From positions 6,089,001-6,153,000 of the forward strand of contig JASXTE010000017.1 of NCBI GenBank assembly GCA_030280995.1: a stretch of DNA of 64,000 bases. The letters are read 5' to 3'. This document shows positions 5,580-18,660 of the stretch, piece after piece. The notes below the pieces were generated by a model. The model did no database searches and had not been told where the DNA came from. It was given only the letters and a program-made list of their open reading frames with translations. The stretch is from Hemileia vastatrix. Its lineage: Eukaryota > Basidiomycota > Pucciniomycetes > Pucciniales > Zaghouaniaceae. Each line of letters starts with the position of its first letter. Position 1 is the stretch's first letter. The position numbers and the translations under genes are program-made.

Positions 5580-6715
5580 TGTGGTAGCCTAAAGTTTAGT
5601 ACGGCACCTAAATATGTAAATGGAGTTATTACGGCGTGCAAGATTGGCGTTATTATTTTTTTTATATAAAAGGGTTTTATTTAATTTATTTGAGTTTTAA
5701 ATATGAAGAAATTGGTCACGAGCGAATGCCTACACGAAAACAATTTATTTTACGGAGAAAACTTATTTTTACGGTCTGAAAAATTTATAAGTATTAAGTC
5801 GAGTCACTCAAGAACCTTGGGAAATTTTCCCAGAATTTTTACTATTTTTCTTATATTTTTAAATGAATTTTAAAGTTTTATAGAAATATTTACGTTTTCA
5901 AAAATTACTTAACTTTGATGAATTTTCACAGGGTAATTAGAGCTGCGCAGACTACGAAAATTAGTTTGGTATGTAAAGGGGAAATAGCTCTATTGTGTGT
6001 AATTTTTCTAGATTTTTTATTATGGTTTTAAGGTTCTAAATTGAGTCCGGAAGTCCGGAGGGACTCCGTACGGACTCCGCTTTGACTCCGTACGGACTCC
6101 GTACGGACTCCGTTCCGGCTCCGGATTGACTCTGGAAGAGCTCTGGAGGGGAAAACTTAGGCACGTGACTAGGAATACTTAAGCGCTTCTCAAACTCGAA
6201 ATTGAGAGGGGGGGGACACATCATACAGCTTAATCTTTAACCACCACGGTCTCATTTTTTATTACTCAACAAATTAAATAAATTGTAATACCCTTATAAC
6301 TTTATATTTTATATATAACATTTTAGAAATACTACTCAACAATTTAAATAACACTTCATACAGGGTATCTTTAGAAAGGTCATCCTCACTGGGACTTGAT
6401 TATAGCTGTCTCATAAAAACTTAAATTATTATAAAAACATAAAAGTCAATCTTTTCAGATCTTTCACTGGTACACCTTAATTGTTGTTATCAGTATTTCT
6501 TTATCAACAGCCACTTTCTTTTAATCTCAATAAGCGTTAATTATTTTAGAGTTTCATTATTTTTATCAATCAGATCTAAGTAGATTGGTTAGCTTAGTGA
6601 TTTAGAACACCTACTTTGTTATTTTTATTGGAAGGACGGGGTTTTCAGCTAAATCCACATATCTCCTCCGGATTCTGCTTACAGCAAGGCGACTGTAAGA
6701 GTTTACCTTACCATA
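5580..6715 (+). repeat. Gy-B 5' LTR
   Basis: It starts TGTGGTAGCC and ends TTACCATA, and is nearly identical to 16610-17713. It is about 32 bp longer because of extra units of an 11-bp minisatellite (GACTCCGTACG-type) at about 6058-6118. The exact 3' boundary could shift by one or two bases because the following GT is shared. Confidence 0.92.
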
Positions 6716-6717
6716 GT

Positions 6718-6735
6718 TGGCGCCCAACGTGGGGT
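6718..6735 (+). other. Gy-B primer binding site
   Basis: TGGCGCCCAACGTGGGGT lies 2 nt after the LTR. TGG is the complement of a tRNA CCA end, and TGGCGCCC is the start used by retroelements primed by lysine-type tRNAs. Complementarity to a tRNA seems to extend into the T-loop (TTCGA follows). The specific tRNA is inferred, not checked. Confidence 0.7.
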
Positions 6736-6786
6736 TCGATTTCTCTAGCTTTCTTTAAAAGACTTACTTGGATCAAGAACGTTATT

Positions 6787-6849
6787 AGCCTGCAAGAGGC
6801 TTATTTTCTGGAACTATAATTGGATTTTTGTTATTGGCCTGCAAGAGGC
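6787..6849 (+). repeat. two leader hairpins of the Gy-B repeat family
   Basis: Two direct repeats 49 nt apart each carry GCCTGCAAGAGGC (6788-6800 and 6837-6849), a 4-5 bp stem with a 5-nt loop, flanked by GTTATT and a T-rich tail. They resemble the CCTC...GAGG hairpins found in ORF2 but are more divergent. They sit between the PBS and the gag start, where retroelements often keep packaging signals. Confidence 0.55.
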
Positions 6850-6892
6850 TTGTTATTTTATCGATTGTTAACGCTTTTCATTACTTATTGGG

Positions 6893-9502
6893 ATGTCTTC
6901 TTCTGCTGTTGCTTCTGGATCTTCTAACCCTCTTACTCCCTCAGTTAGAATTGTTTCTTGGGATGGCCCAAAGTTTGATGGGGAGGAGGTTAAATGGTTC
7001 ATTAGCAGGTATGAAGCTGCTGCTGCTGTTGATGGTGCTTCTCATGTGGACATGGTGAAGCAAGTTAGATTTTTTATTGCTGATAGGGAGGTGGAAAAAG
7101 AGGTTATTGCTATGCAGGCATTCAAGGACAAGGATTGGGTTAAGCTTTCTAAAGCTATGGTTGATAGATGGGGTGTTAGGTTTACTATGATGGACCTCAA
7201 TAAAATTGTTGGAGACTGGCAAGCAAAAGGTGGTGTTTCTTCTATGGCTGACTTCAAAAAACTCTGTGTTCAGTTTGATGAAGTGGTGGAATATCTCATA
7301 CTGGTGGACGAGTTAGTGCATGAGAACCAAGCAAAAGATTTGTTTTGGACAGCATGCAGCAGGGATATTCGAATGGACGTCTTGAAGGATCTTTCAAGAA
7401 AAGATTTGATGAAGGAACTGCCTAATGGTGAGCAGAAACTGCCGGCTCTGGAGGTTATCAAAGAGAACATTCAGGCCCATCTCAAGTTATTGGTGTTGGA
7501 CAAATATCAAGAGTCTTGCACTCAATATGTTAGCAAGGTTAGCGAAGTTTTGGCCGAAAACAACGATATTATGGTCAAAGCCCAAGAGGCCAAGAAGGCT
7601 CAAATGGGATTACCGGCTGCTAAAGTTGAGGGCAATGTAGAAAATAAGATGGTCGATCACTTGGCCGATTTAACGAAACAATTAAAAATATTTGTTCAAG
7701 AGACACAGAAGGCCAACAAGGCCCCAATCGCTTCTTCGTTGACGTCAACTTCTTATCAGTCCAGAGGTTATGAACGTCGAAATTATAATGGCAATAATAA
7801 TGGTAACCGCTTCCCAGGCAATGGGAGAAATGGTGGGAATGGTGGTAATGGATATAGAGGTGGCTATGATGAGCCAAAGGTGTGCTCCTATTGTAATAGG
7901 AGAGGGCACAGAGCAACAGTTAGTTTTGCTCTTGATAAGGATATGGATGCTGGGCGAGTTTTATTCGATGGTAAAGTTTATAAATTTCCCGATGGTTCGT
8001 TCATCAAGCCCAGTGATGGACAGTCTCCTTCTGATTTGGTCAGAAGAAGTTTAACGGCTGAAAGGAGAGCCAGATTTGAAGAGGTGACGGATGAAGATGT
8101 TAATGCCAAGAGTGGCAAAAATGGCAATGGTAATGGTGGTAAAGCTGACAAGGGCAAGGAGAAAGAGGTCAGTAAAGCCACATTTTCTACTTCTTTTGGA
8201 GGTTTAGAGCTGGCGACGGTTGCCCAGGTGGAGGGTAGCTGTATGGCTGGCGAATATGATGTTAACGCTGCTAGAAGAGCAGCCGCTACTAAGGCAAAAA
8301 GTAGCATTCAGAGCCAATTAAGGGCTAATCCTGGCAAGGCCAATAACAAAGTGAACCCTTACTCTAAGGACAAGAATTCTAGTGCTCAAACTGCCGCCAA
8401 CAAATTGAACCCTTACTCTAAGGACAAATTATATAAAATGCAGAAGGGGATTGCTGATATGGGGCCCCCTAGTTATGGCAAGTTTGATTTAAATGGTGAG
8501 CCTATGCCAGAGGATGATTTGGATTCTGAGGAGGACATACCATTGGCGTCTCTACCCAGACCAAGTTTTAGCGGTCCCATCCCAATGGAGGGTGTAAGAA
8601 GGACTAGCGATGGATCAGGATTAGTGCAAGAAGCTGGTGACGGAGTTAGGGTTATAGAAAGTGAAGATGTTATAATGGGGGGTGAAGATGGCTCGGTTGG
8701 ACCTCAAGAGGTACCCAGGGCCAAGGTTGTTAAATCAAAGGTCCAGTATGAGCGGCCAGTAGTTTCCGGTCAAGCTAATGCGATGGACGCAGTTTTGAAT
8801 AGGGTGAATCAACTTCAGATTCCCTTATCTTTGGGGGAGTTATTTACGATTAGTCCGGCGCTTGCTGAAAAGCAAAAGAAGCATTTGACGAGGCGTCGGG
8901 TTTCCACTGGAGAGGTGGAATATATTTGTGAAAATGCTGAAAAGTTTGGGGAAGATGTAGATACACATTTTTCCGCTCCCCTGGGTTACCTGGTGGTAAC
9001 TCTTAATGGTAAAGAAGTAAAGGCCTTGGTCGATTCAGGGTCTCAAATTAATTTAATTTCATTGGAGCAAGCGACGAGTATAGGCTTGCCAATTAAAAGT
9101 GGAACTGGGGGAAACCTCAGAGGTATTGGAGGGCATGCAACAGAGCTGATGGGTACTGCTGAGCATGTCAGGTTAGGCATTGGTGGATCTGTTGGTAAGG
9201 TTCACTTTTATGTGGCCAGAGGAGCAGTCAAAACTGTTCTTGGTGGTCCTTTTTTGATGGATTTTGAGGCCAGGATAGGGTATCAAGCTGGCATGGGGAT
9301 TAGTTTGGAGATCACTGGTGAAGATATGCGGAGGTTACATATGCGGTTAGCGCCTCCTGGAGATGAAGGTTGGGAAACACGGCCAGGGATTACTACTCTG
9401 TGCCAGTGTTGTGTTTGCACCAAGAAGCGGCATATAAAACGGATGGCTTCTGGTGAATTATGTTTGTTGGAAAGGGATGAATGCCCTCATTTTTTGGGGT
9501 AG
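6893..9502 (+). CDS. gag: Gy-B ORF1: Gag-protease polyprotein
   Basis: This 869-residue protein combines the structural Gag with the aspartic protease. Residues about 1-260 form a capsid-like helical region (start MSSSAVASGSSN). A Gly/Asn/Arg-rich stretch (about 290-325) precedes a zinc knuckle CSYCNRRGHRATVS at 331-344, whose last position is Ser instead of Cys. NPYSKDK is repeated twice (about 487 and 506). The retropepsin motif LVDSGSQINLIS is at about 712-723 and a Gly-rich flap region follows. The C-terminus has a cluster of Cys (CQCCVC). The ORF ends TAG at 9500-9502, one codon after the slippery heptamer TTTTTTG, so part of the product is likely extended into ORF2 by -1 frameshifting. 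It appears intact. Confidence 0.9.
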   Translation: MSSSAVASGSSNPLTPSVRIVSWDGPKFDGEEVKWFISRYEAAAAVDGASHVDMVKQVRFFIADREVEKEVIAMQAFKDKDWVKLSKAMVDRWGVRFTMMDLNKIVGDWQAKGGVSSMADFKKLCVQFDEVVEYLILVDELVHENQAKDLFWTACSRDIRMDVLKDLSRKDLMKELPNGEQKLPALEVIKENIQAHLKLLVLDKYQESCTQYVSKVSEVLAENNDIMVKAQEAKKAQMGLPAAKVEGNVENKMVDHLADLTKQLKIFVQETQKANKAPIASSLTSTSYQSRGYERRNYNGNNNGNRFPGNGRNGGNGGNGYRGGYDEPKVCSYCNRRGHRATVSFALDKDMDAGRVLFDGKVYKFPDGSFIKPSDGQSPSDLVRRSLTAERRARFEEVTDEDVNAKSGKNGNGNGGKADKGKEKEVSKATFSTSFGGLELATVAQVEGSCMAGEYDVNAARRAAATKAKSSIQSQLRANPGKANNKVNPYSKDKNSSAQTAANKLNPYSKDKLYKMQKGIADMGPPSYGKFDLNGEPMPEDDLDSEEDIPLASLPRPSFSGPIPMEGVRRTSDGSGLVQEAGDGVRVIESEDVIMGGEDGSVGPQEVPRAKVVKSKVQYERPVVSGQANAMDAVLNRVNQLQIPLSLGELFTISPALAEKQKKHLTRRRVSTGEVEYICENAEKFGEDVDTHFSAPLGYLVVTLNGKEVKALVDSGSQINLISLEQATSIGLPIKSGTGGNLRGIGGHATELMGTAEHVRLGIGGSVGKVHFYVARGAVKTVLGGPFLMDFEARIGYQAGMGISLEITGEDMRRLHMRLAPPGDEGWETRPGITTLCQCCVCTKKRHIKRMASGELCLLERDECPHFLG

Positions 9503-12500
9503 CTGGGGCTGATCGCTCTAATGTTGTAATCTCTCCTCATAATGAGATCCCGGATTGCAATAGGTCAGCTCACTTGGAGATAATTCAAGTGGATTCTCAA
9601 TTATTTTCTGTTAATATTACTTTGGAGTGCAAATACGTTATGGAATTTTCTATATGTTTATTGGATTTACCCTGTTTTTCTATTAAATTTAAAAACGGTG
9701 AAAAAGGCAAAATGGGCCAAATTAGGTTGGATAAAAATTGGAAGGGTATGTATATGGGCCTCCAGCAAGAGGTTAAACTGCAATTATCTCCTTCTATTTT
9801 GGACCTCCAGCAAGAGGGTAAACTGCGAAAATCTCATCAAAATCAAATAAAAAATCTTGGTATAATTAAAACTCAAAAAAATAATTTTTGTGAAAATTCA
9901 ATTCCGGTCCTCCAGCAAGAGGTTAAACTGCCGACTTTCTTTACAGGTGATTTACTGTTGGATAAGGGAAGCAAAGGTGTTGGAAAATCTGTTTATAAAT
10001 TAGACGAGGAAAAGGAGAAAAGCGTAAAATTTAAAAATGAAATAAAATATTTTTCTAATTTTTCTTATTCTGATTCTGGCAATGAAGAAGATTCATTTGA
10101 TGAAAGTTTTAATGGCGATACAAAAGAAAATGTTTTACCTCAAGTTAATTTAGATGTGGACGCAGCCAAATATAAGAAAGTAGCAAATAAAGTTCGACCT
10201 ATTAATGAACCGCTACCTGCTGAATTAAATCCACCTTTGAGAAGACCAAGGTTAACAAGAGATCCTTATGAAAGTCCCTTGGTAAAGAATCCGCCTGAAT
10301 TTTCTGAGACTTCAAGAATCACTTTTGAGAGACTGGGTGTTGTTAATTTTGGACCTGATGGTTGGTTGTCTGGAGAAGAGAAGAAGTTGTTGTTGGATGT
10401 GATGGTCAAGCGAGAGAAGGCCATTGCTTTTGTAGAAGAGGAGAGGGGTGTGTTGAAGCATTCCTATGGGGAGCCTTACAAGATTCCTGTGGTATGTCAT
10501 GAACCGTGGCAGCAGAAACCGATTCCTATTCCGGCTGCATTAAAAGAAGCCTATATTGAAGTTGTCAGAGAACAGATACGCACTGGACTGTATGAGCAAT
10601 CAACGTCAAGTTATTCTAGTCCGGTATTTTGTATCAAGAAACCGAATGGCAAGCTTAGAGTTGTTCATGATCTTAGGGAATTAAATAGGGTTACAATAAA
10701 GGATGCTGGGATACCGCCTAGTGCTGAGGAGTTTGTTGAAGTGTTTGCAGGGAGAGTGTGTTATGGTTTGGGAGATATTATGGGTGGATATGATGAGAGA
10801 GAGTTACATCCGGACTCAAGGCCTCTCACTACATTCGATACACCACTTGGACGTTTACAGTTAACAAGATTACCTCAAGGAGCAACAAATTCGGTTGCAG
10901 TTTATCAAGCTCAGATGGCTTGGATCCTTCAAGACGAAATTCCACAATATGCTGGAATCTTTATAGATGATGGAGGAATTAAGGGACCAACAACCGACTA
11001 TGATAACCAGGTGTTGGAAGAGAATCCCGGGATACGCAAATTCATTTGGGAGTTTGCAATTACTTTAGAAAGAATCTTGTTTCGAATTGAAGAGGCTGGT
11101 TTAACTATTTCAGGTTCAAAATTTTCATGTTGTGTGCCAGCCTTAGAAATATTAGGCCATGTGGTATGTAGAGAGGGTAGGATTATGTCTAAGAAGAAAG
11201 TTAACAAAATTCAGTCCTGGCCAAGACCCAAGAATACGACCGAATTCAGAGGGTTTTTAGGTGTTTGTGTATATGTTAGAATGTTTATTAAGGACTTTTC
11301 TTCATTGGCAGCTCCATTGAGACGGTTAACGAGAAAGGATGCAGACTGGGAGTGGGATGAAGAGTGTGAGAAGGCGTTTGTGAAGTTGAAGGAGGTTGTG
11401 GGGAAGGATTTAGTCCTGCACAAGTTGGATTATGGAAAAGATGCTGGCAGAATTTATTTAGCAGTTGATTCAAGTCAGGTTGCAGCTGGGGCGGTTTTGT
11501 CTCAGATGGATAAAGCTGGTTACATCAGGCCAGTTAGGTATGAATCTGTAGTATTTACTGAGGTCGAATCAAGATATTCTCAACCAAAATTGGAATTATG
11601 TGGTGTGGCGAAAATACTGAATAAACTTCAGCATATTTTGTGGGGGCAACATTTTGAGTTGCAAGTGGATGGGAAATCGTTAATCCAGATGATTAATTCC
11701 CCAAGTTTACCGAACGCACCCATGACGAGATGGGTAGCTTTTATACAACATTTTTCATTTGATTTAGTTCATAAGCCTGGCAAGACTTTTACTATGCCGG
11801 ATGGTTTATCAAGGAGACCACCCACTGAAGAAGATTCAGACTCAGAAGAGTTCGATGAAGATATACCTATTATCAAAGCCAGCACTAAAGGAGCTGAAGA
11901 CTTTCCATACCTCCCCCATGAGGTTAAACTGGCAGGACTATTGTGTTTAGATTATGATGATGATGACCTCCACCAAGAGGATAAACTGGAAAATAGTTTT
12001 TATGTTAAAAAAGGTGTTGAAAAAGGTGTAGATAAATTCGGCAGAGAGGAGGTAGAAGAAGATGTGGTGTATGAAGATGAAGATGGATTGGTAGTGTGGG
12101 ATAGTAGTAAATTAAGGAATGGTGTATATGTTGGAGAATTAGAGAATTTAAATAAAAAGGTGGATAAAGAGAAAGAGGTATTTTCAAATACGGTTTTCAA
12201 AGGATCCAAAGGTTCAGAAGAAAAACGTCGACATAGCTCGATTAAAGATTTATTTAGGGGTCAACGATTATTGGCTCATTCATGTGCAGGTGATATTGGT
12301 GATAGAGAAGTCCCTATTGATGTTATATTAATCGATTTTCAAGATGAAGTCTGGGGTCAGACTGGTTTTTATTTTTTGTTAGTCAAATATTTGTTGACTT
12401 TAGAGAGGCCAGAAGATTGTGAAGACGATGAATGGGTGGCTATCAAGAGGAAGTCATCTACGTTTTACCTATCTGGTCGACGTTTAATGAGGAGGAGATA

Positions 12501-13647
12501 TCCAAATCCTCAAGTAGTTATAACTCAACAGAAGGGGCAAGAATTAGTTTTGAAATCACTGCATGAAGATCTCGGGCATAGAGGCGTGGGAGAAACGTTT
12601 AGAAGAATTTCTGATCGATTTTGGTGGCCTGGCATGAAGATGGCTGTTAAACAGTGGGTTCAGTCATGCGAAGAATGTCAAAGACGAAGTTATTTAAGGC
12701 CAAAAGAACCTGGACGCGCGACCGGTGAATATACGCTCTTTGGAAGAGTTAGTTTAGATGCCGTTCATATAAAAGAGGGACGGTATAAATATTTAATTGT
12801 GGCCAGAGATGATCTATCTGGTTGGGTAGAGGCAGCGCCTCTTATTAATTTAACTGCCAAAAATGTGGCAGAATTTTTTTTGAATAATTGGGTATATAGG
12901 TATGGGGTGATGAAGTTGGTGACGGTAGATGGAGGTCCTGAATTTGGGACAGAGTTTAAAGAGGCCGTATTGAAAGTTGGATCAAAGGTTAGGGTAGCAA
13001 CCCCATATTATCCTGAAGCTGAAGGCATGGTTGAAAGAGGGCATCAAGTTATTAAGGATGCTTTAGTTAAAATGTGTGGGACAAGTGCCGAAAAGTGGAG
13101 GCACTATTTACCTTTAGTTTTATTTGCTGATCAAATCACTGCCAAAAGGACGACCGGATTTTCACCTTATGAACTTGTTTTTGGACAGAAAGCAGTTTTA
13201 CCGGTTGATTTAGAAGCTGAATCATATCTTGGAGTTGACTGGGACACGGTCAAAACTACTGAAGAATTATTGTGTGCAAGAATGATGCAGCTAGAAAAGA
13301 AAGAAGAATATTTAGAAAAGGCATATTCGCGGATGATGAAGATCCGAAATCAATCAGTTAGATATTGGGATGAGCGGTTGGCACATCGATTAAGGAAACC
13401 TTTGAACCCAGGAGATATGGTCCTGGTGTATAATAGGAGTTTGGAAAGTCAGTTGGGAAAAATGTTTGCAGATAGGTGGAATGGACCGTATAAAATCAAG
13501 GAGCAAGTTTCCGGCGGTTCATATGTGCTAGAAGAGTTGGATGGAGTTGTATTGAAGAAGAGGGTAGCTGCCAATCAAGTGAAACGGTTCTATCCTAGAG
13601 GCACCAGGAGTGCCGAAGTCTTCCTCCGCAATGAGGATAAACTATGA
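9481..13647 (+). CDS. pol: Gy-B ORF2: pol (reverse transcriptase, RNase H, integrase)
   Basis: This 1388-codon ORF lies in the -1 frame relative to ORF1. A TGA at 9478-9480 closes the frame just upstream of ATG 9481, so the frame can be entered only within 9481-9502. The N-terminal 270 residues are of unknown function and contain three LQQExKL repeats. RT includes KPNGKLRVVHDLRELN (about 384) and FIDD at 494-497. RNase H starts near VDSSQVAAGAVLSQ (Asp 663). A second spacer with two more LxxExKL repeats follows (about 810-835). Integrase has an HHCC-like zinc region (HEDLGHRG, then CEEC) and catalytic residues D1093, D1150 and E1185. No chromodomain is seen. The stop codon lies inside a hairpin repeat. 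Confidence 0.93.
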   Translation: MPSFFGVAGADRSNVVISPHNEIPDCNRSAHLEIIQVDSQLFSVNITLECKYVMEFSICLLDLPCFSIKFKNGEKGKMGQIRLDKNWKGMYMGLQQEVKLQLSPSILDLQQEGKLRKSHQNQIKNLGIIKTQKNNFCENSIPVLQQEVKLPTFFTGDLLLDKGSKGVGKSVYKLDEEKEKSVKFKNEIKYFSNFSYSDSGNEEDSFDESFNGDTKENVLPQVNLDVDAAKYKKVANKVRPINEPLPAELNPPLRRPRLTRDPYESPLVKNPPEFSETSRITFERLGVVNFGPDGWLSGEEKKLLLDVMVKREKAIAFVEEERGVLKHSYGEPYKIPVVCHEPWQQKPIPIPAALKEAYIEVVREQIRTGLYEQSTSSYSSPVFCIKKPNGKLRVVHDLRELNRVTIKDAGIPPSAEEFVEVFAGRVCYGLGDIMGGYDERELHPDSRPLTTFDTPLGRLQLTRLPQGATNSVAVYQAQMAWILQDEIPQYAGIFIDDGGIKGPTTDYDNQVLEENPGIRKFIWEFAITLERILFRIEEAGLTISGSKFSCCVPALEILGHVVCREGRIMSKKKVNKIQSWPRPKNTTEFRGFLGVCVYVRMFIKDFSSLAAPLRRLTRKDADWEWDEECEKAFVKLKEVVGKDLVLHKLDYGKDAGRIYLAVDSSQVAAGAVLSQMDKAGYIRPVRYESVVFTEVESRYSQPKLELCGVAKILNKLQHILWGQHFELQVDGKSLIQMINSPSLPNAPMTRWVAFIQHFSFDLVHKPGKTFTMPDGLSRRPPTEEDSDSEEFDEDIPIIKASTKGAEDFPYLPHEVKLAGLLCLDYDDDDLHQEDKLENSFYVKKGVEKGVDKFGREEVEEDVVYEDEDGLVVWDSSKLRNGVYVGELENLNKKVDKEKEVFSNTVFKGSKGSEEKRRHSSIKDLFRGQRLLAHSCAGDIGDREVPIDVILIDFQDEVWGQTGFYFLLVKYLLTLERPEDCEDDEWVAIKRKSSTFYLSGRRLMRRRYPNPQVVITQQKGQELVLKSLHEDLGHRGVGETFRRISDRFWWPGMKMAVKQWVQSCEECQRRSYLRPKEPGRATGEYTLFGRVSLDAVHIKEGRYKYLIVARDDLSGWVEAAPLINLTAKNVAEFFLNNWVYRYGVMKLVTVDGGPEFGTEFKEAVLKVGSKVRVATPYYPEAEGMVERGHQVIKDALVKMCGTSAEKWRHYLPLVLFADQITAKRTTGFSPYELVFGQKAVLPVDLEAESYLGVDWDTVKTTEELLCARMMQLEKKEEYLEKAYSRMMKIRNQSVRYWDERLAHRLRKPLNPGDMVLVYNRSLESQLGKMFADRWNGPYKIKEQVSGGSYVLEELDGVVLKKRVAANQVKRFYPRGTRSAEVFLRNEDKL
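9490..9496 (+). promoter_or_regulatory. putative -1 programmed ribosomal frameshift site
   Basis: In the ORF1 frame the bases read CA-T TTT TTG GGG TAG, giving the canonical X XXY YYZ heptamer T TTT TTG (compare HIV-1 U UUU UUA). It lies exactly in the 22-nt overlap, and slipping back one base enters the pol frame (GGG GTA GCT). Possible downstream pairing includes GCTGA at 9508-9512 with TCAGC at 9565-9569; a stimulatory structure was not computed. The alternative is reinitiation at ATG 9481. Confidence 0.7.
9759..9930 (+). repeat. three coding hairpin repeats in the ORF2 N-terminus
   Basis: Copies start at 9759, 9804 and 9909. Each is CCTC, loop CAGCAA, GAGG, then KTAAACTG. All three are in the same reading phase and encode LQQE(V/G)KL. 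Synonymous positions do not vary between copies, unlike neighbouring sequence. Confidence 0.85.
11910..11985 (+). repeat. two coding hairpin repeats between RNase H and integrase
   Basis: Copies at 11910 (loop CCCCAT) and 11967 (loop CACCAA) keep the CCTC/GAGG stem and the WTAAACTGG tail. They encode LPHEVKL and LHQEDKL in the same phase as the N-terminal copies. Confidence 0.85.
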
Positions 13648-13884
13648 CATTTATCAAATTTTATGGATTCCTCCGCAATGAGGATAAACTATGATATCAA
13701 TGAAACTTTATGGATTCCTCCGCAATGAGGATAAACTATGATATTGATGAAATTTTACGGATTCCTCCGCAATGAGGATAAACTATGACATTTATGAAAT
13801 TATATGGACGAACTCCGAAATGAGGATAAACTACAATTTTAATGACTTTTATTAAATTTATACCTCCGCAACGAGTATAAACTA
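13623..13884 (+). repeat. tandem 47-bp hairpin repeats across the pol stop codon
   Basis: Six units start at 13623, 13671, 13718, 13764, 13812 and 13863, each CCTC, loop CGCAAT, GAGG, then ATAAACTATGA. The last two are degenerate, with a mismatch in the outer pair. The first unit encodes the last residues of pol (LRNEDKL), and its tail supplies the TGA stop at 13645-13647. The remaining units are non-coding but preserve the same sequence. Confidence 0.92.
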
Positions 13885-14683
13885 TCTTCTTATTTTTATC
13901 AAAAATACTTTACTATCATTACACTGCATATGGGCGATGAAACTGTGATGAAACTTAACGAAATTTAAAAAGACCTTCTTTGAAAATTTTCAAAATTTAA
14001 AATTCTTAAAATATGGGTGAAGATAGTGTTGGAAAAATTTTAAAATTTATTGGAAGAAGTGTTCACAGGGGAACCTTCTTAATTTAATATTGGCAAGTGT
14101 GGGGGTAATTGATGGGCTGGCTGCTCTATACACAATTACCCCATAATGTTCGTTTCCAAAATTTTCCCTGTTTCTAGTTGAATCCTGGCTTTGTCTTTTA
14201 ATTCTAGGAAGTCCACTAAGACTATAAACTGGAACAAATCAAGAGACACCGCTCTCAACGCCGGATTCAAGATTTTTTTTGTTTTATTTTGTTTTTGATT
14301 TTTTATGTTAGATTGTGATTTCTTTTCTTTAATATATATTATGAATTATTGTAAAGGTGATGCTCACTGGTGGTCTCTAATCATTTTTATAAATTGGAGG
14401 GAGCCCACCCAGTGATCATCATTATAAAAATTATCTTCTAAAAACTTTCATTTATTTTCTTTTCTTTTCAATTTCTCAAAATTGTGTAACCACATCAAGT
14501 TACACTTGGATGTGGGTATGATGTCGAGGGTACGGCTCATCAAATGGCCGGGGGGCATCTTTTAAAATTTTATTTTAAAATTTTTTTTTTATTATTACTT
14601 TTTTTATCATTCTTTTCACATTCGTTTATCTTTCTTTAAAAATTAAATTTTAACTTTTATTTCAAAACTATCTCTTTTAAATC

Positions 14684-14714
<31 letters not shown>

Positions 14715-15000
14715 AAAATTAAAAAATAAAAAAAATAAAAAATAAAAATAAAAATAAAAAAATAAATAAATAAATAAATTAAAAAAAAAAATAATAATAA
14801 TAAATAAATAAAAATAAAATAATAAATAAATAAAAAAAAAAAAAAAAATTAATTAATTAAATTAAAATTATTATTATATTTCTTAGTTTTATTTTTTTTA
14901 GTTTTCATTCTTTTTAGTTTTTTTTTTTCATTTAGTTTAGACAGGAAACAGGGTCTAGGAGAACTCAATACCTATGGGATTTTACTTCAAGACATCTTTT
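13885..15000 (+). other. Gy-B 3' non-coding region, first part
   Basis: No credible ORF is present. A hairpin pairs GGGGTAATTG (14102-14111) with CAATTACCCC (14133-14142). One full member of the hairpin family is at 14210-14232 (AGTC, loop CACTAA, GACT, tail ATAAACTGG). Around 14356-14425 GATG..CACTGG can pair with CCAGTG..CATC. An A-rich low-complexity block with AAAT/AAT runs fills 14675-14875. Confidence 0.75.
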
Positions 15001-15939
15001 AGTCCTCCAACACTTTAAACTGGCTACTTTTCAAGACTTTCCTTAAGGTTTTTTTATACGTATTTTGGATCTGTTAGTCCTCCAAGACTTTAAACTGGCT
15101 ACTGTTCAAGACTTTCCTTAAGGGTTTTATACGAATTATGGAGCTGTTAGTCCTCCAAGACTTTAAACTGGCTAATTTTCAAGAATTTCATTAAAGATTT
15201 TATATGGAGCTGTTAGTCCTCCAAGACTTTAAACTGGCTACTTTTCAAGACTTTCCTTAAGGTTTTTTTATACGTATTTTGGATCTGTTAGTCCTCCAAG
15301 ACTTTAAACTGGCTACTGTTCAAGACTTCCCTTAAGGTTTTATACAAATTTTGGAGCTTTTAGTCCTCCAAGACTTTAAACTGGCTAATTTTCAAGACTA
15401 TCGTTAAAAATTTTTTTTATTGGATTTGTTAGGTCCACCAAGACCTTAAACTGGAGTGTTATCAAATGTTAGGTCCACCAAGACCTTAAACTGGACTATT
15501 ATCATGTGCTGGGTCCACCATGACCTTAAACTGGATTTCTTATCGATTAAATGTTTGGTCCACCATGACTTTAAACTGGTAGTTCATTCATTGTTTAGTC
15601 CACTATGACTTTAAACTGGAAAATTAATATCTGCAGGATAATTCAACATTCATTGGACCACTATGGCCTTATACTGGATTACTTGTCGATCAAATGTTTG
15701 GTCCACTATGACATTAAACTGGATTATCAAATTTATTCAATCTTTGGTCAAGCCTAGGCCTTAATTAGGAATATATCAAGATATTTATGCACTTAAACGA
15801 TCTTTGGTCCACCAAGACCATAAACTGGCAATCGATTATATGTTTGGTCCACCAAGACTTTAAACTGGAATGTTAATCTTGTTTGGATAACTCAATTCAA
15901 TCTTTTAATTTATCACTGTCCACTAAGACTCTAAACTGG
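15001..15939 (+). repeat. array of 17 hairpin repeats in the Gy-B 3' non-coding region
   Basis: Units begin at 15001, 15076, 15149, 15215, 15290, 15362, 15432, 15472, 15512, 15557, 15597, about 15653 (degenerate), 15700, about 15745 (degenerate), 15806, 15846 and 15917. Each has a 4-nt arm, 6-nt loop (CTCCAA, CACCAA, CACCAT, CACTAT or CACTAA), complementary arm and tail TTAAACTGG. Stem classes are AGTC/GACT in the left part and GGTC/GACC or GGTC/GACT in the right part. Spacing is 40-75 nt with weakly related linkers (TTCAAGACTTTCCTTAAGG-like in the left half). Confidence 0.93.
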
Positions 15940-16599
15940 TTATTCAATTATTTCTGGAATTGGGTGCTGATAAGCTTTAGGAGGTTTAAATTTTAGGTGG
16001 TGATGATGCTAAAGAAAGCATAATGGTTAACTAGGGAAAATTTGTGGCGCTTTAACATGGTCTAAAGTTAAAATTATTATTGGAAGCCTGGCAAAAGTAT
16101 TTTATGGGTTTGCTGTATAGCAAAGTTTGAAAATTGTGATGAAGGAATCAGAAGTTAGGATGGTAGTTGGATTTTAGGGAATGATTTTTTTTAGTGCCTC
16201 ATAGTTAGGCCATTTTTTTTGGTGTGAAGCTTGGAGGACCTTATGGCGAGATTGGAATCATAGAATTCGGCTCAGTGGGGGGCCCTATGAGGTTGGAATC
16301 AGGAGTATTCGGCTCATAGGAAGATCCACTCTCTCAATGCTGTGACAAGAAGGAAGACTGGTATATGGGAGTCTGAAGGGATTCAAACCTTGCTCTCAGT
16401 AGTGGAATCATCACAAGATTTATATTATTTTATTTTATGTTATATCAAGCCAGAGAAGAAGAAAGAACATTTTTATTATAAAGATTTAAAAGAAGACCAG
16501 CTAAAACAAATTTATCAAATTATTTTATTAGAAAAGATAATTCTTTTGGAATTGCTCAACCACTTATGCAAAGTTATAAGAATGGGGACATTCTCGATT
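15940..16599 (+). other. Gy-B 3' non-coding region, last part
   Basis: No repeat-family member or convincing gene is visible. A frame at 16342-16617 is open for 91 codons, but it has no recognizable domain and runs across the polypurine tract into the LTR. It is treated as chance. Confidence 0.6.
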
Positions 16600-16609
16600 G
16601 GAGGGAGGA
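16600..16609 (+). other. Gy-B polypurine tract
   Basis: GGAGGGAGGA directly precedes the 3' LTR start at 16610 and fits the primer site for plus-strand synthesis. Confidence 0.75.
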
Positions 16610-17713
16610 TGTGGTAGCCTAAAGTTTAGTACGGCACCTAAATATGTAAATGGAGTTATTACGGCGTGCAAGATTGGCGTTATTATTTTTTTTTATATAA
16701 AAGGGTTTTATTTAATTTATTTGAGTTTTAAATATGAAGAAATTGGTCACGAGCGAATGCCTACACGAAAACAATTTATTTTACGGAGAAAACTTATTTT
16801 TACGGTCTGAAAAATTTATAAGTATTAAGTAGAGTCACTCAAGAACCTTGGGAAATTTTCCCAGAATTTTTACTATTTTTCTTATATTTTTAAATGAATT
16901 TTAAAGTTTTATAGAAATATTTACGTTTTCAAAGATTACTTAACTTTGATGAATTTTCACAGGGTAATTAGAGCTGCGCAGACTACGAAAATTAGTTTGG
17001 TATGTAAAGGGGAAGTAGCTCTATTATGTGTAATTTTTCTAGATTTTTTATTATGGTTTTAAGGTTCTAAATTGAGTCCGGAAGTCCGGAGGGACTCCGT
17101 ACGGACTCCGTACGGGCTCCGGATTGACTCTGGAAGAGCTCTGGAGGGGAAAACTTAGGCACGTGACTAGGAATACTTAAGCGCTTCTCAAACTTGAAAT
17201 TGAGAGTGGGGGGACACATCATACAGCTTAATCTTTAACCACCACGGTCTCATTTTTTATTACTCAACAAATTAAATAAATTGTAATACCCTTATAACTT
17301 TATATTTTATATATAACATTTTAGAAATACTACTCAACAATTTAAATAACACTTCATACAGGGTATCTTTAGAAAGGTCATCCTCACTGGGACTTGATTA
17401 TAGCTGTCTCATAAAAACTTAAATTATTATAAAAACATAAAAGTCAATCTTTTCAGATCTTTCACTGGTACACCTTAATTGTTGTTATCAGTATTTCTTT
17501 ATCAACAGCCACTTTCTTTTAATCTCAATAAGCGTTAATTATTTTAGAGTTTCATTATTTTTATCAATCAGATCTAAGTAGATTGGTTAGCTTAGTGATT
17601 TAGAACACCTACTTTGTTATTTTTATTGGAAGGACGGGGTTTTCAGCTAAATCCACATATCTCCTCCGGATTCTGCTTACAGCAAGGCGACTGTAAGAGT
17701 TTACCTTACCATA
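16610..17713 (+). repeat. Gy-B 3' LTR
   Basis: It is nearly identical to 5580-6715 (about six substitutions). The minisatellite at about 17091-17125 is shorter here. It ends TTACCATA, followed by Gy-A sequence. Confidence 0.92.
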
Positions 17714-18660
17714 GTGTGAATTTGTCATTGTCTTTAAAGTCAAGACCAAAAGTACAATATCTTTTTATCATATCTTCTAAAGTTTTTATCATTCTTTCTT
17801 CTAGCCCATCAGTTTCTGGATGGTGTGCTGTAGAAACTTTTAATTGACACCCTGAAACATCCATAAGTGATGTCCAGAACTCAGAAGTAAATTTAGGATC
17901 TCTGTCTGAGAATATTGCTTTGGGGAAACCTTCTAAATTTAACATTTGTGTCCACCATAAAAAAGCTAAGTCCTTTGCAGAAACCTCTTTGTGGGTAGGA
18001 ATAAACTTACACATTTTTGTAAATCTATCTACAATTACCCATCAGGAGTTATAGCTCTTATGCCCTGCTATTGGAAAACCTGTTAAACGTCCATGTTAAC
18101 TATTTCCCATGGAGCTTTTGGTTTCTCAATTTGTTGTAATAAACCAGCTCTTTTGCCTGTTAATGTTTTAAATTTTTGACAAGAATCACATGTCTCACAT
18201 ATTTTTGAACATCATCAGACATGTTAATCAACGAAGCTGAATTTTTTACTGTGGTTAATGTTTTATGGAAGTCAAAATGACCTGCTAATATATCATCATG
18301 AAATGTATTTAACATTAACTCCTTAATTGAAGGGGGAATTACAATTACATTGCTTACTTTTTTCCTGTAATATATAAAACCATCCTCAATGGAAAATTTT
18401 CCTTTTTCTAATGCTTCTTTATACTTTTGTGGTAATTTTTTTTATTAAAACAGTCATTGAAGCATTAGATGGATCATTTAATATTGTAGTAAGTTTACTT
18501 AAGTCAGGATCTGAAGCATAATTATCAAGAATTGATTGCATAAATTCATCCTCAAGATCAAAAATATAAATGCCATAAATGTTAATAATCTCTGTTTCAG
18601 GAACATAAGCAGGATTATCATCATTATTTGGTAGAGGTACTCTAGATAACAGATCTAAAT
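17714..18660 (-). pseudogene. Gy-A integrase (N-terminal and core part)
   Basis: Read on the minus strand, 18014-17717 encodes the integrase core with the second catalytic Asp (AIFSDRDPKFTSEFW) and the Glu segment (HHPETDGLEERM). The equivalent intact region of Gy-C is at 40610-40900. The zinc-binding and first-Asp parts (18660-18020) are recognizable by similarity to Gy-C but are broken by frameshifts. The reading frame is severed at 17714 by Gy-B and continues at 5579. Confidence 0.85.

Follow-up and report, generated by a model that had tools for sequence, protein, structure and literature searches.

Exonuclease-resistant RNAs (xrRNAs) are known from viruses, and among them the element called coremin, or xrRNAC, stalls Xrn1 in benyviruses, cucumoviruses, umbraviruses, hypoviruses, a chrysovirus and others (Dilweg et al. 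2023, PMC10520033). Here we describe a 64,000-nucleotide stretch of the Hemileia vastatrix genome (contig JASXTE010000017.1, positions 6,089,001 to 6,153,000), hereafter the window, in which one long terminal repeat (LTR) retrotransposon carries 28 sense-strand copies of a 23-nt motif. These copies are probably coremin-type mini pseudoknots which, in the RNA of the retrotransposon, would act as serial roadblocks to Xrn1.

As described by Dilweg et al. (PMC10520033), coremin was originally a 20-nt motif with the hexaloop consensus YGNNAD, which also occurs in coding sequence, as repeats and, in two viruses, at stop codons. In the context of beet necrotic yellow vein virus (BNYVV), whose tail in the published constructs is CUAC, the loops CGCAAU and CGAAAU are Xrn1-resistant while CGAAAC is not, and a loop G is required, CAGAAA being among the loops that failed. 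The same work reports that a second hairpin (hp2) is needed in vitro in a structural role only, with 2-bp hairpins said to suffice, and that coremin is a barrier to scanning ribosomes in both reticulocyte lysate and wheat germ, where the hexaloops CGAAAA and CGAAAU exceed the wild type. The structure of coremin was unsolved in 2023 (PMC10520033). Yeast Xrn1 produces the benyvirus noncoding RNA in yeast (PMC5869530), and this RNA counters silencing (PMC5086608). Flavivirus xrRNAs, which are arranged in tandem, block RNase J1 and Dxo1 as well (PMC5760640); the array described here resembles them, by analogy, as a set of serial RNA roadblocks, but they have another, larger fold and far fewer copies.

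A 23-nt motif occurs 28 times in one retrotransposon

The motif consists of a 4-bp stem (positions 1-4 with 11-14), a 6-nt loop of the form CNNNAW, one base of any kind and TAAACTGG or a variant of it; the only exception to the loop form is the copy at 13863, which has C at its end. A covariance model, built from the same 28 copies that it finds, places these between 9759 and 15939, all on the plus strand, with E ≤ 0.0015, and its next match in the window has an E of 1.2. A sequence-only model recovers the same 28 copies and none elsewhere in the 64 kb. When a strict pattern was applied to the internal region of the element (6718-16609), it gave 22 matches and none on the opposite strand, and 200 dinucleotide shuffles gave 3 matches in total.

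Three copies lie in the linker between protease (PR) and reverse transcriptase (RT), two in the linker between RNase H and integrase (IN), one at the end of pol and 22 in the noncoding 3' region, and the covariance model places none of the 28 in the leader or in gag-PR. They fall into two classes. Class A comprises 6 copies, at 13623-13863, with loops CGCAAU, CGAAAU or CGCAAC and tail CUAU or CUAC. Class B comprises the 22 others, in which bases of the loop are complementary to the tail.

9759..9781, + strand, class B, loop GCA with tail UGC, PR-RT linker
9804..9826, + strand, class B, GCA/UGC, PR-RT linker
9909..9931, + strand, class B, GCA/UGC, PR-RT linker
11910..11932, + strand, class B, CCA/UGG, RNaseH-IN linker
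11967..11989, + strand, class B, CCA/UGG, RNaseH-IN linker
13623..13645, + strand, class A, CGCAAU, canonical coremin core, last pol codons
13670..13692, + strand, class A, CGCAAU, canonical
13717..13739, + strand, class A, CGCAAU, canonical
13764..13786, + strand, class A, CGCAAU, canonical
13812..13834, + strand, class A, loop CGAAAU, outer pair 1-14 broken
13863..13885, + strand, class A, loop CGCAAC (sixth base off consensus), outer pair 1-14 broken
14210..14232, + strand, class B, CUA/UGG
15001..15023, + strand, class B, CCA/UGG, inner pair 4-11 broken
15076..15098, + strand, class B, CCA/UGG
15149..15171, + strand, class B, CCA/UGG
15215..15237, + strand, class B, CCA/UGG
15290..15312, + strand, class B, CCA/UGG
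15362..15384, + strand, class B, CCA/UGG
15432..15454, + strand, class B, CCA/UGG
15472..15494, + strand, class B, CCA/UGG
15512..15534, + strand, class B, CCA/UGG
15557..15579, + strand, class B, CCA/UGG, outer pair a wobble
15597..15619, + strand, class B, CUA/UGG
15655..15677, + strand, class B, CUA/UGG, pair 3-12 broken, tail UAUACU
15700..15722, + strand, class B, CUA/UGG, outer pair 1-14 broken
15806..15828, + strand, class B, CCA/UGG
15846..15868, + strand, class B, CCA/UGG, outer pair a wobble
15917..15939, + strand, class B, CUA/UGG, outer pair 1-14 broken

These results bear out the initial annotation in what it had seen first, a family of mini-hairpins within one retrotransposon, all in the same orientation. 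Its count of 29 drops to 28, the copy at about 15746 not being found by the model, and the two divergent copies that it had placed in the leader (6787-6801 and 6836-6850) give no model match at E ≤ 10 and have, by eye, a 5-bp/5-nt shape. These leader sequences are direct repeats shortly after the presumed primer binding site, each with a 5-bp stem and the loop GCAAG, and one of the two stems contains a wobble pair. They stand outside the motif family, and would be well placed for a packaging or dimerization signal.

Two other searches complete this description. Loops of 4, 5, 7 or 8 nt gave 13 matches in the window, of which the element itself has only 2, on the minus strand in each case. A known Rfam RNA as the identity of the motif was rejected, since no match in the window reached the gathering score; for 6700-16700, 8 weak matches lay below that score, the best (E 0.36) to a snoRNA family.

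Covariation in the stem and between loop and tail

Among the 28 copies, standard pairs are found at 1-14 in 24, at 2-13 in all 28 and at 3-12 and 4-11 in 27 each, and all four stem pairs are standard in 22. Pair 2-13 is G-C in 17 copies and C-G in 11, while 1-14 occurs as C-G, A-U, G-C and G-U; the stem classes are those initially described, namely CC:GG in pol and the 47-bp array, AG:CT, GG:CC and the wobble GG:CT. The stem covariation score is 0.462 compared with 0.156 in shuffled data, a value that none of 500 shuffles reached, and slid registers also score lower. Since independent stem events are few, with three stem classes joined by a wobble state and multiplied by tandem duplication, stem covariation alone is moderate evidence for structural selection. 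Predicted isolated stems are weak, about -1 to -5 kcal/mol, and copy 15001 forms none.

Covariation extends to the loop and the tail, a feature beyond what the initial annotation had described. Every one of the 22 class B copies can pair its loop bases 7-9 with its tail bases 21-23, all three pairs being Watson-Crick or wobble. The combinations are CCA/UGG (14 copies), CUA/UGG (5) and GCA/UGC (3, the PR-RT copies); pair 7-23 is seen as C-G and G-C and pair 8-22 as C-G and U-G, which within the window amounts to a single two-sided change. The layout is that of an H-type pseudoknot, with a stem 1 of 4 bp, a loop 1 of 2 nt, a stem 2 of 3 bp, one linking base and the A-rich loop NUAAAC. As judged from covariation in the window and in the external sequences presented below, the predicted fold of the class B loop-tail pairing is an H-type pseudoknot.

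The motif is also conserved against its surroundings. Over all 28 copies, the identity of the core is 74%, compared with 35% and 36% in the flanks. In the 10 copies of the right array, motif identity is 0.87 vs 0.42 and 0.41 in the 20-nt flanks (0.52 and 0.51 with sliding flanks), and in the 5 pol-linker copies it is 0.88 vs 0.35 and 0.33 (0.43 and 0.47 with sliding). When the copies are sorted by their flanks into 10 groups, with one representative for each, pair 2-13 is kept in all 10 representatives and each of the pairs 1-14, 7-23 and 8-22 in 9; one group takes in 18 of the 28 copies, partly because the flanks are AT-rich. The initial proposal that selection acts on RNA structure and on the tail is thus backed by the stem and loop-tail covariation, the core kept against its flanks and the sense orientation of 28/28 copies, and is tempered by the small number of independent stem events and by two of five shuffle measures that were not exceeded.

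Class A copies carry the coremin core

Four copies match the coremin core exactly (4 bp, YGNNAD, N, UAAACUA). The consensus YGNNAD with a full stem is found in these 4 of 28, and also in copy 13812 with a broken outer pair, while the loop of copy 13863 ends in C. The spacer NUAAACU is present in 27/28 copies (15655 has UAUACU); the base that follows this stretch is A in 6 copies, G in the other 22. Like coremin, the motif has a 4-bp hairpin with a C-G closing pair and a U-A second pair, a six-base loop that starts with C and has A as its fifth base, a single spacer base and UAAACU. The final base of copy 13623..13645 is the first base of the pol stop codon, a likeness to the motifs that reach stop codons in two viruses. 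By its sequence, the class A unit is hp1 plus spacer, the core of coremin/xrRNAC, so that the initial statement that no family of this kind had been described no longer stands: coremin exists (PMC10520033), and four copies meet its hexaloop consensus exactly.

There are also differences from coremin as published. A stable hp2 was not found here; the 22 class B copies have no loop G, and have the pairing of loop 7-9 with tail 21-23 instead; and there are 28 copies in one RNA, carried not by a virus but by an LTR retrotransposon of a cellular genome. The loops that failed in BNYVV, such as CAGAAA, do not cover loops matched by UGG or UGC, because the tail in those constructs stayed CUAC. The array has the coremin core and probably works like coremin, and we do not file it as a proven xrRNAC.

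The pairing register recurs, with uneven support, in phage and bacterial contigs

Pattern scans of IMG/VR and GTDB contigs, in which loop bases 6-8 and tail bases 22-23 were left free, provided two external sets. The first, for the first two stem patterns, comprises 101 distinct 41-mers collapsed from 117 places, and the second 78 distinct 23-mers with a paired outer stem, from 149 places. The intergenic and open reading frame (ORF) subsets are distinct 23-mers with paired stems, excluding 78 fixed-tail-pattern loci. One IMG/VR pattern scan gave at least 120 matching stretches, 80 of them listed. The p-values are for pairs that the window copies had predicted, and wrong registers served as control.

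In the first set, loop position 2 is G in 62/101 sequences, 56 of which have a purine at position 8 and 53 an A at position 22. By these bases, the external G-loop places are of the coremin class. In pooled loci, 120/132 coremin-class places lie outside ORFs of at least 80 aa, vs 26/82 for other loops and 58/360 for random positions.

For loops without G, the first set shows standard pairs at 8-22 in 26/39 (mean 15.2, p 0.0002) and at 7-23 in 20/39 (mean 14.5, p 0.03), and shifted registers are not enriched. In the intergenic subset, the same pairs are found in 18/24 (p 0.003) and 15/24 (p 0.019), again with no enrichment of wrong registers. Pair 8-22 occurs there as C-G, U-A, U-G, A-U and G-C. 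Further pair types in this subset number 14, a value that 5/500 shuffles reached. In the ORF subset, enrichment is seen for 8-22 (28/47, p 0.002) and not for 7-23 (20/47, p 0.29); the former was partly unexpected, most ORF hits having been taken for chance. The two sets disagree on pair 7-23 in the G-loop class, which is not enriched in the first (14/62, mean 17.8) and is enriched in the second (23/58, mean 16.8, p 0.03). The pseudoknot register of the retrotransposon therefore recurs in unrelated genomes, with support that is strong when pooled and uneven by subset.

Individual loci give an idea of where these cores lie. Coremin cores (loop CGNRAW, tail NUAAACUA) are found between genes in phage contigs from IMG/VR (L142, L128, L113 and many of L086-L157), and one is present in the named record MN018232.1 (L337:714-736, minus strand). 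In Synechococcus phage S-B43, the motif has an intergenic position in the annotation, with a coding sequence starting about 35 nt downstream; the stretches examined of phages S-B05 and Sha1 have no motif. Six of the 33 GTDB contigs from the pattern scan have the core, in Treponema metagenome-assembled genomes (L168:1875, L182:483, L185 and L159) and in Methanovirga ones (L170, twice, and L177). A likely ribosome-binding site and an ATG follow closely after the core in L168, L182 and L185. An Rfam search of 8 external loci gave no match at the core, and only a tRNA scored well. The hits of the first IMG/VR pattern scan (78 contigs) were set aside as looking like chance, with 13 stem-paired C...A places over 78 loci at no more than one tail mismatch.

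The host element

The retrotransposon that carries the motif has the following features.

5580-17715, + strand, LTR retrotransposon carrying all 28 motif copies
5580..6717, + strand, 5' LTR, 99% identity to 16610-17715
6887..9502, + strand, gag-protease ORF (Pfam Asp_protease_2, gag-asp_proteas, RVP), without motif copy
9481..13647, + strand, pol ORF, -1 frame relative to gag-protease, with RT, RNase H and integrase domains
9490..9496, + strand, TTTTTTG slippery site, followed by GGG TAG at the gag-PR end (9490-9502)
10633-11163, + strand, RT, within pol
11353-11754, + strand, RNase H, within pol
12532-13014, + strand, integrase, within pol
13648-16609, noncoding 3' region from pol to the 3' LTR, arrays with 47-, 75- and 40-bp units
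16610..17715, + strand, 3' LTR, 99% identity to the 5' LTR

The TTTTTTG at 9490-9496 is a probable -1 frameshift site leading from gag-PR into pol. The Gag zinc knuckle (about 7880-7930) reads CxxCxxxxHxxxxS, with Cys at the last residue in the relatives P0003 and P0008. Since the flanks of the element match another repeat in the window and the minus-strand ORFs on either side resemble another element, the retrotransposon is probably nested in another element. In the noncoding 3' region, a long A-rich stretch (14684-14848) separates the 47-bp from the 75-bp array, and CTTGGAGGAC at 16230-16239 could pair along its full length with 10 nt (GTCCTCCAAG) of the copies in the AGTC class, a match that was spotted by eye and may be chance.

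A long region between pol and 3' LTR with tandem arrays, here 13648-16609, is a feature in common with the plant Retand elements (PMC11963269). Their repeats are family-specific, whereas here one RNA core is kept against decayed flanks, pol included; the main text on Retand makes no mention of a hairpin or stem-loop.

We found 92 homologous proteins. Puccinia (11 proteins) and Phenoliferia (9) are the nearest named pol relatives among them; the best ones are environmental, with at most 74% identity over 40% of pol. Pol-based scans of the IMG/VR and GTDB contigs found no relative of the element. In the 92 proteins, the peptide pattern L..E.KL has 11 hits vs 3.8 expected, but 8 of these represent a single site, upstream of RT, that relatives have in common. 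The gag-pol linkers of P0008 (residues 713 and 789) and of P0017 from Puccinia coronata (residue 953) contain LCNEVKL, LRDEGKL and LRNERKL, of which LCNEVKL and LRDEGKL are peptides that coremin cores could encode. With the P0008 linker as query, P0008 and P0017 were the only proteins found, and a search with the window linker found nothing at E ≤ 10.

Proposed serial roadblocks and alternative explanations

In the mechanism that we favor, loop bases would contact the tail and the A-rich NUAAAC would lead the strand back, class A copies using the published coremin bases (loop CGNNA, tail CUA) and class B copies the three-pair loop-tail helix. Decay from the 5' end of the element RNA would then halt just before a copy, later copies would back up leaky ones and the RNA downstream would persist. 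RNAs trimmed to about 9759-9931 or 11910-11989 would still hold RT or integrase coding sequence, while those starting within 13670-15939 would be noncoding 3' RNA only. We infer from sequence that the fold forms and stalls Xrn1, and the gain might be a protected 3' end, a silencing decoy (as for the benyvirus noncoding RNA) or occupied Xrn1. Silencing evasion, which had been among the functions initially suggested, would be possible as such a gain, whereas packaging, dimerization or export have become less likely than a block to 5'-3' decay. The absence of copies from the leader and gag-PR would be expected, because coremin blocks scanning ribosomes (PMC10520033).

Several observations weigh against this reading. 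The window counts rest on a single copy of the element, and 6/28 copies have a broken stem pair. Of the five shuffle measures applied to the stem, the two that are least sensitive to relatedness (pairs with two-sided change and further pair types) did not exceed the shuffles for the stem of the 28 copies (482/500 and 483/500), for class B with the pseudoknot (94/500 and 339/500) or for all 28 with the pseudoknot (413/500 and 482/500). The loop G required in the BNYVV context is missing in 22/28 copies. Hairpins of at least 3 bp and -1 kcal/mol or lower that start within 5 nt downstream, as candidates for hp2, follow 3/28 copies vs 10% of shuffles, with a mean z of -0.15, the same as at control offsets, 2-bp hairpins being beyond the reach of the method; hp2 downstream of the motif was rejected at this shuffle-level frequency. 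External class A hits in phages and bacteria behave alike, with hp2 in 12% vs 12% shuffled (n=122). Nor do the native flanks appear to be tuned to the stem, with a mean pair probability of 0.43 vs 0.48 in shuffled flanks, and a role of the flanks in favoring it was rejected. Among the external sequences, the second set alone is not significant (8-22 in 10/20, mean 7.5, p 0.16; 7-23 in 10/20, mean 8.5, p 0.31), and the GG-tailed hits of the first IMG/VR scan show no loop-tail enrichment (3/9 stem-paired, 15/51 others).

It is unlikely, but best compatible with the data among the alternatives, that the pseudoknots are dispersed sites for Gag or a host RNA-binding protein, whose many contacts would drive packaging. 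Many similar stem-loops along one RNA, 28/28 in sense, are what such a role would lead one to look for: dispersed packaging signals have been described for RNA viruses, those of satellite tobacco necrosis virus and MS2 being likewise many similar stem-loops along one RNA, and a review of Ty1/Ty3, whose packaging sequences it calls not clearly defined, considers that scattered RNA sites outside the major packaging regions likely contribute (PMC4974528). In contrast to those signals, the unit here has the sequence core of an exonuclease-resistant element, down to spacing and tail; phage contigs, one of them from a tailed DNA phage, have the same core in intergenic positions, and the 5' leader and gag have no copies.

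Slowing or stopping of scanning or translating ribosomes, in the linkers and after the stop codon, might pace folding or prevent downstream reinitiation, and would draw on the published block to scanning, on the five copies in pol linkers and on the copy that reaches the pol stop codon. We consider this quite unlikely, since 22/28 copies lie 3' of the pol stop, where few ribosomes would be expected, and the published test concerned scanning and not elongation (PMC10520033).

That the copies are functionless debris of tandem duplication in a fast-evolving region between pol and 3' LTR would fit the arrays of 47-, 75- and 40-bp units and the few stem classes, spread partly by duplication. It is very unlikely, however, given that the flanks have diverged and the 23-nt core has not, that the five pol-linker copies have no flank similarity, and that stem and loop-tail covariation accompanies a match to an independently known RNA motif. 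An array of DNA-level protein-binding sites, an insulator or enhancer, would find its comparison in the Su(Hw) sites of Drosophila gypsy, and short imperfect palindromes repeated among AT-rich flanks have that appearance. This appears most improbable, because half-sites change together, as do loop and tail, a pattern that base pairing accounts for but a single DNA-binding protein does not, and dispersed copies too are in a single orientation. Finally, a repeated linear peptide motif L-x-x-E-x-K-L in the pol linkers, with incidental RNA pairing, is barely credible: the coding copies share one reading frame and encode L..E.KL, and the homologues P0008 and P0017 have similar gag-pol linker peptides (3 hits vs 0.5 expected, with a pattern narrowed after the first scan), but 22/28 copies are noncoding and the codons CTC, GAG and AAA are identical in all six coding copies.

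Returning to serial roadblocks, the phage hits would make sense because flavivirus xrRNA stops even RNase J1 (PMC5760640). We tentatively suggest, as a possibility that goes further than the retrotransposon, that the coremin core may be a widespread RNA part of RNA viruses, a fungal LTR retrotransposon, DNA phages and some bacteria and archaea, which would stop Xrn1 or RNase J. It might have two interchangeable locks, one made by a loop G and a CUA tail and the other by a covarying loop-tail helix of three pairs that would need neither loop G nor hp2, and the retrotransposon would hold 28 in series.

Implications

The type of fold is already known, while for the host, the copy number and the loop-tail lock we found no report in the open-licence literature, covered mostly as titles and abstract openings. 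At that level, the same literature yielded no native xrRNA in a retrotransposon or transposon, and none in phages, where the search covered a small fraction and says little. If it works here, the viral exonuclease-blocking trick has a new place and a new scale, and transposons, too, would manage the 5'-3' decay of their own RNA, in this case via 28 units in series. The loop-tail covariation gives a concrete pairing model for coremin, which predicts mutually rescuing changes in loop and tail, and the phage hits suggest that the core may be far older and wider than thought.

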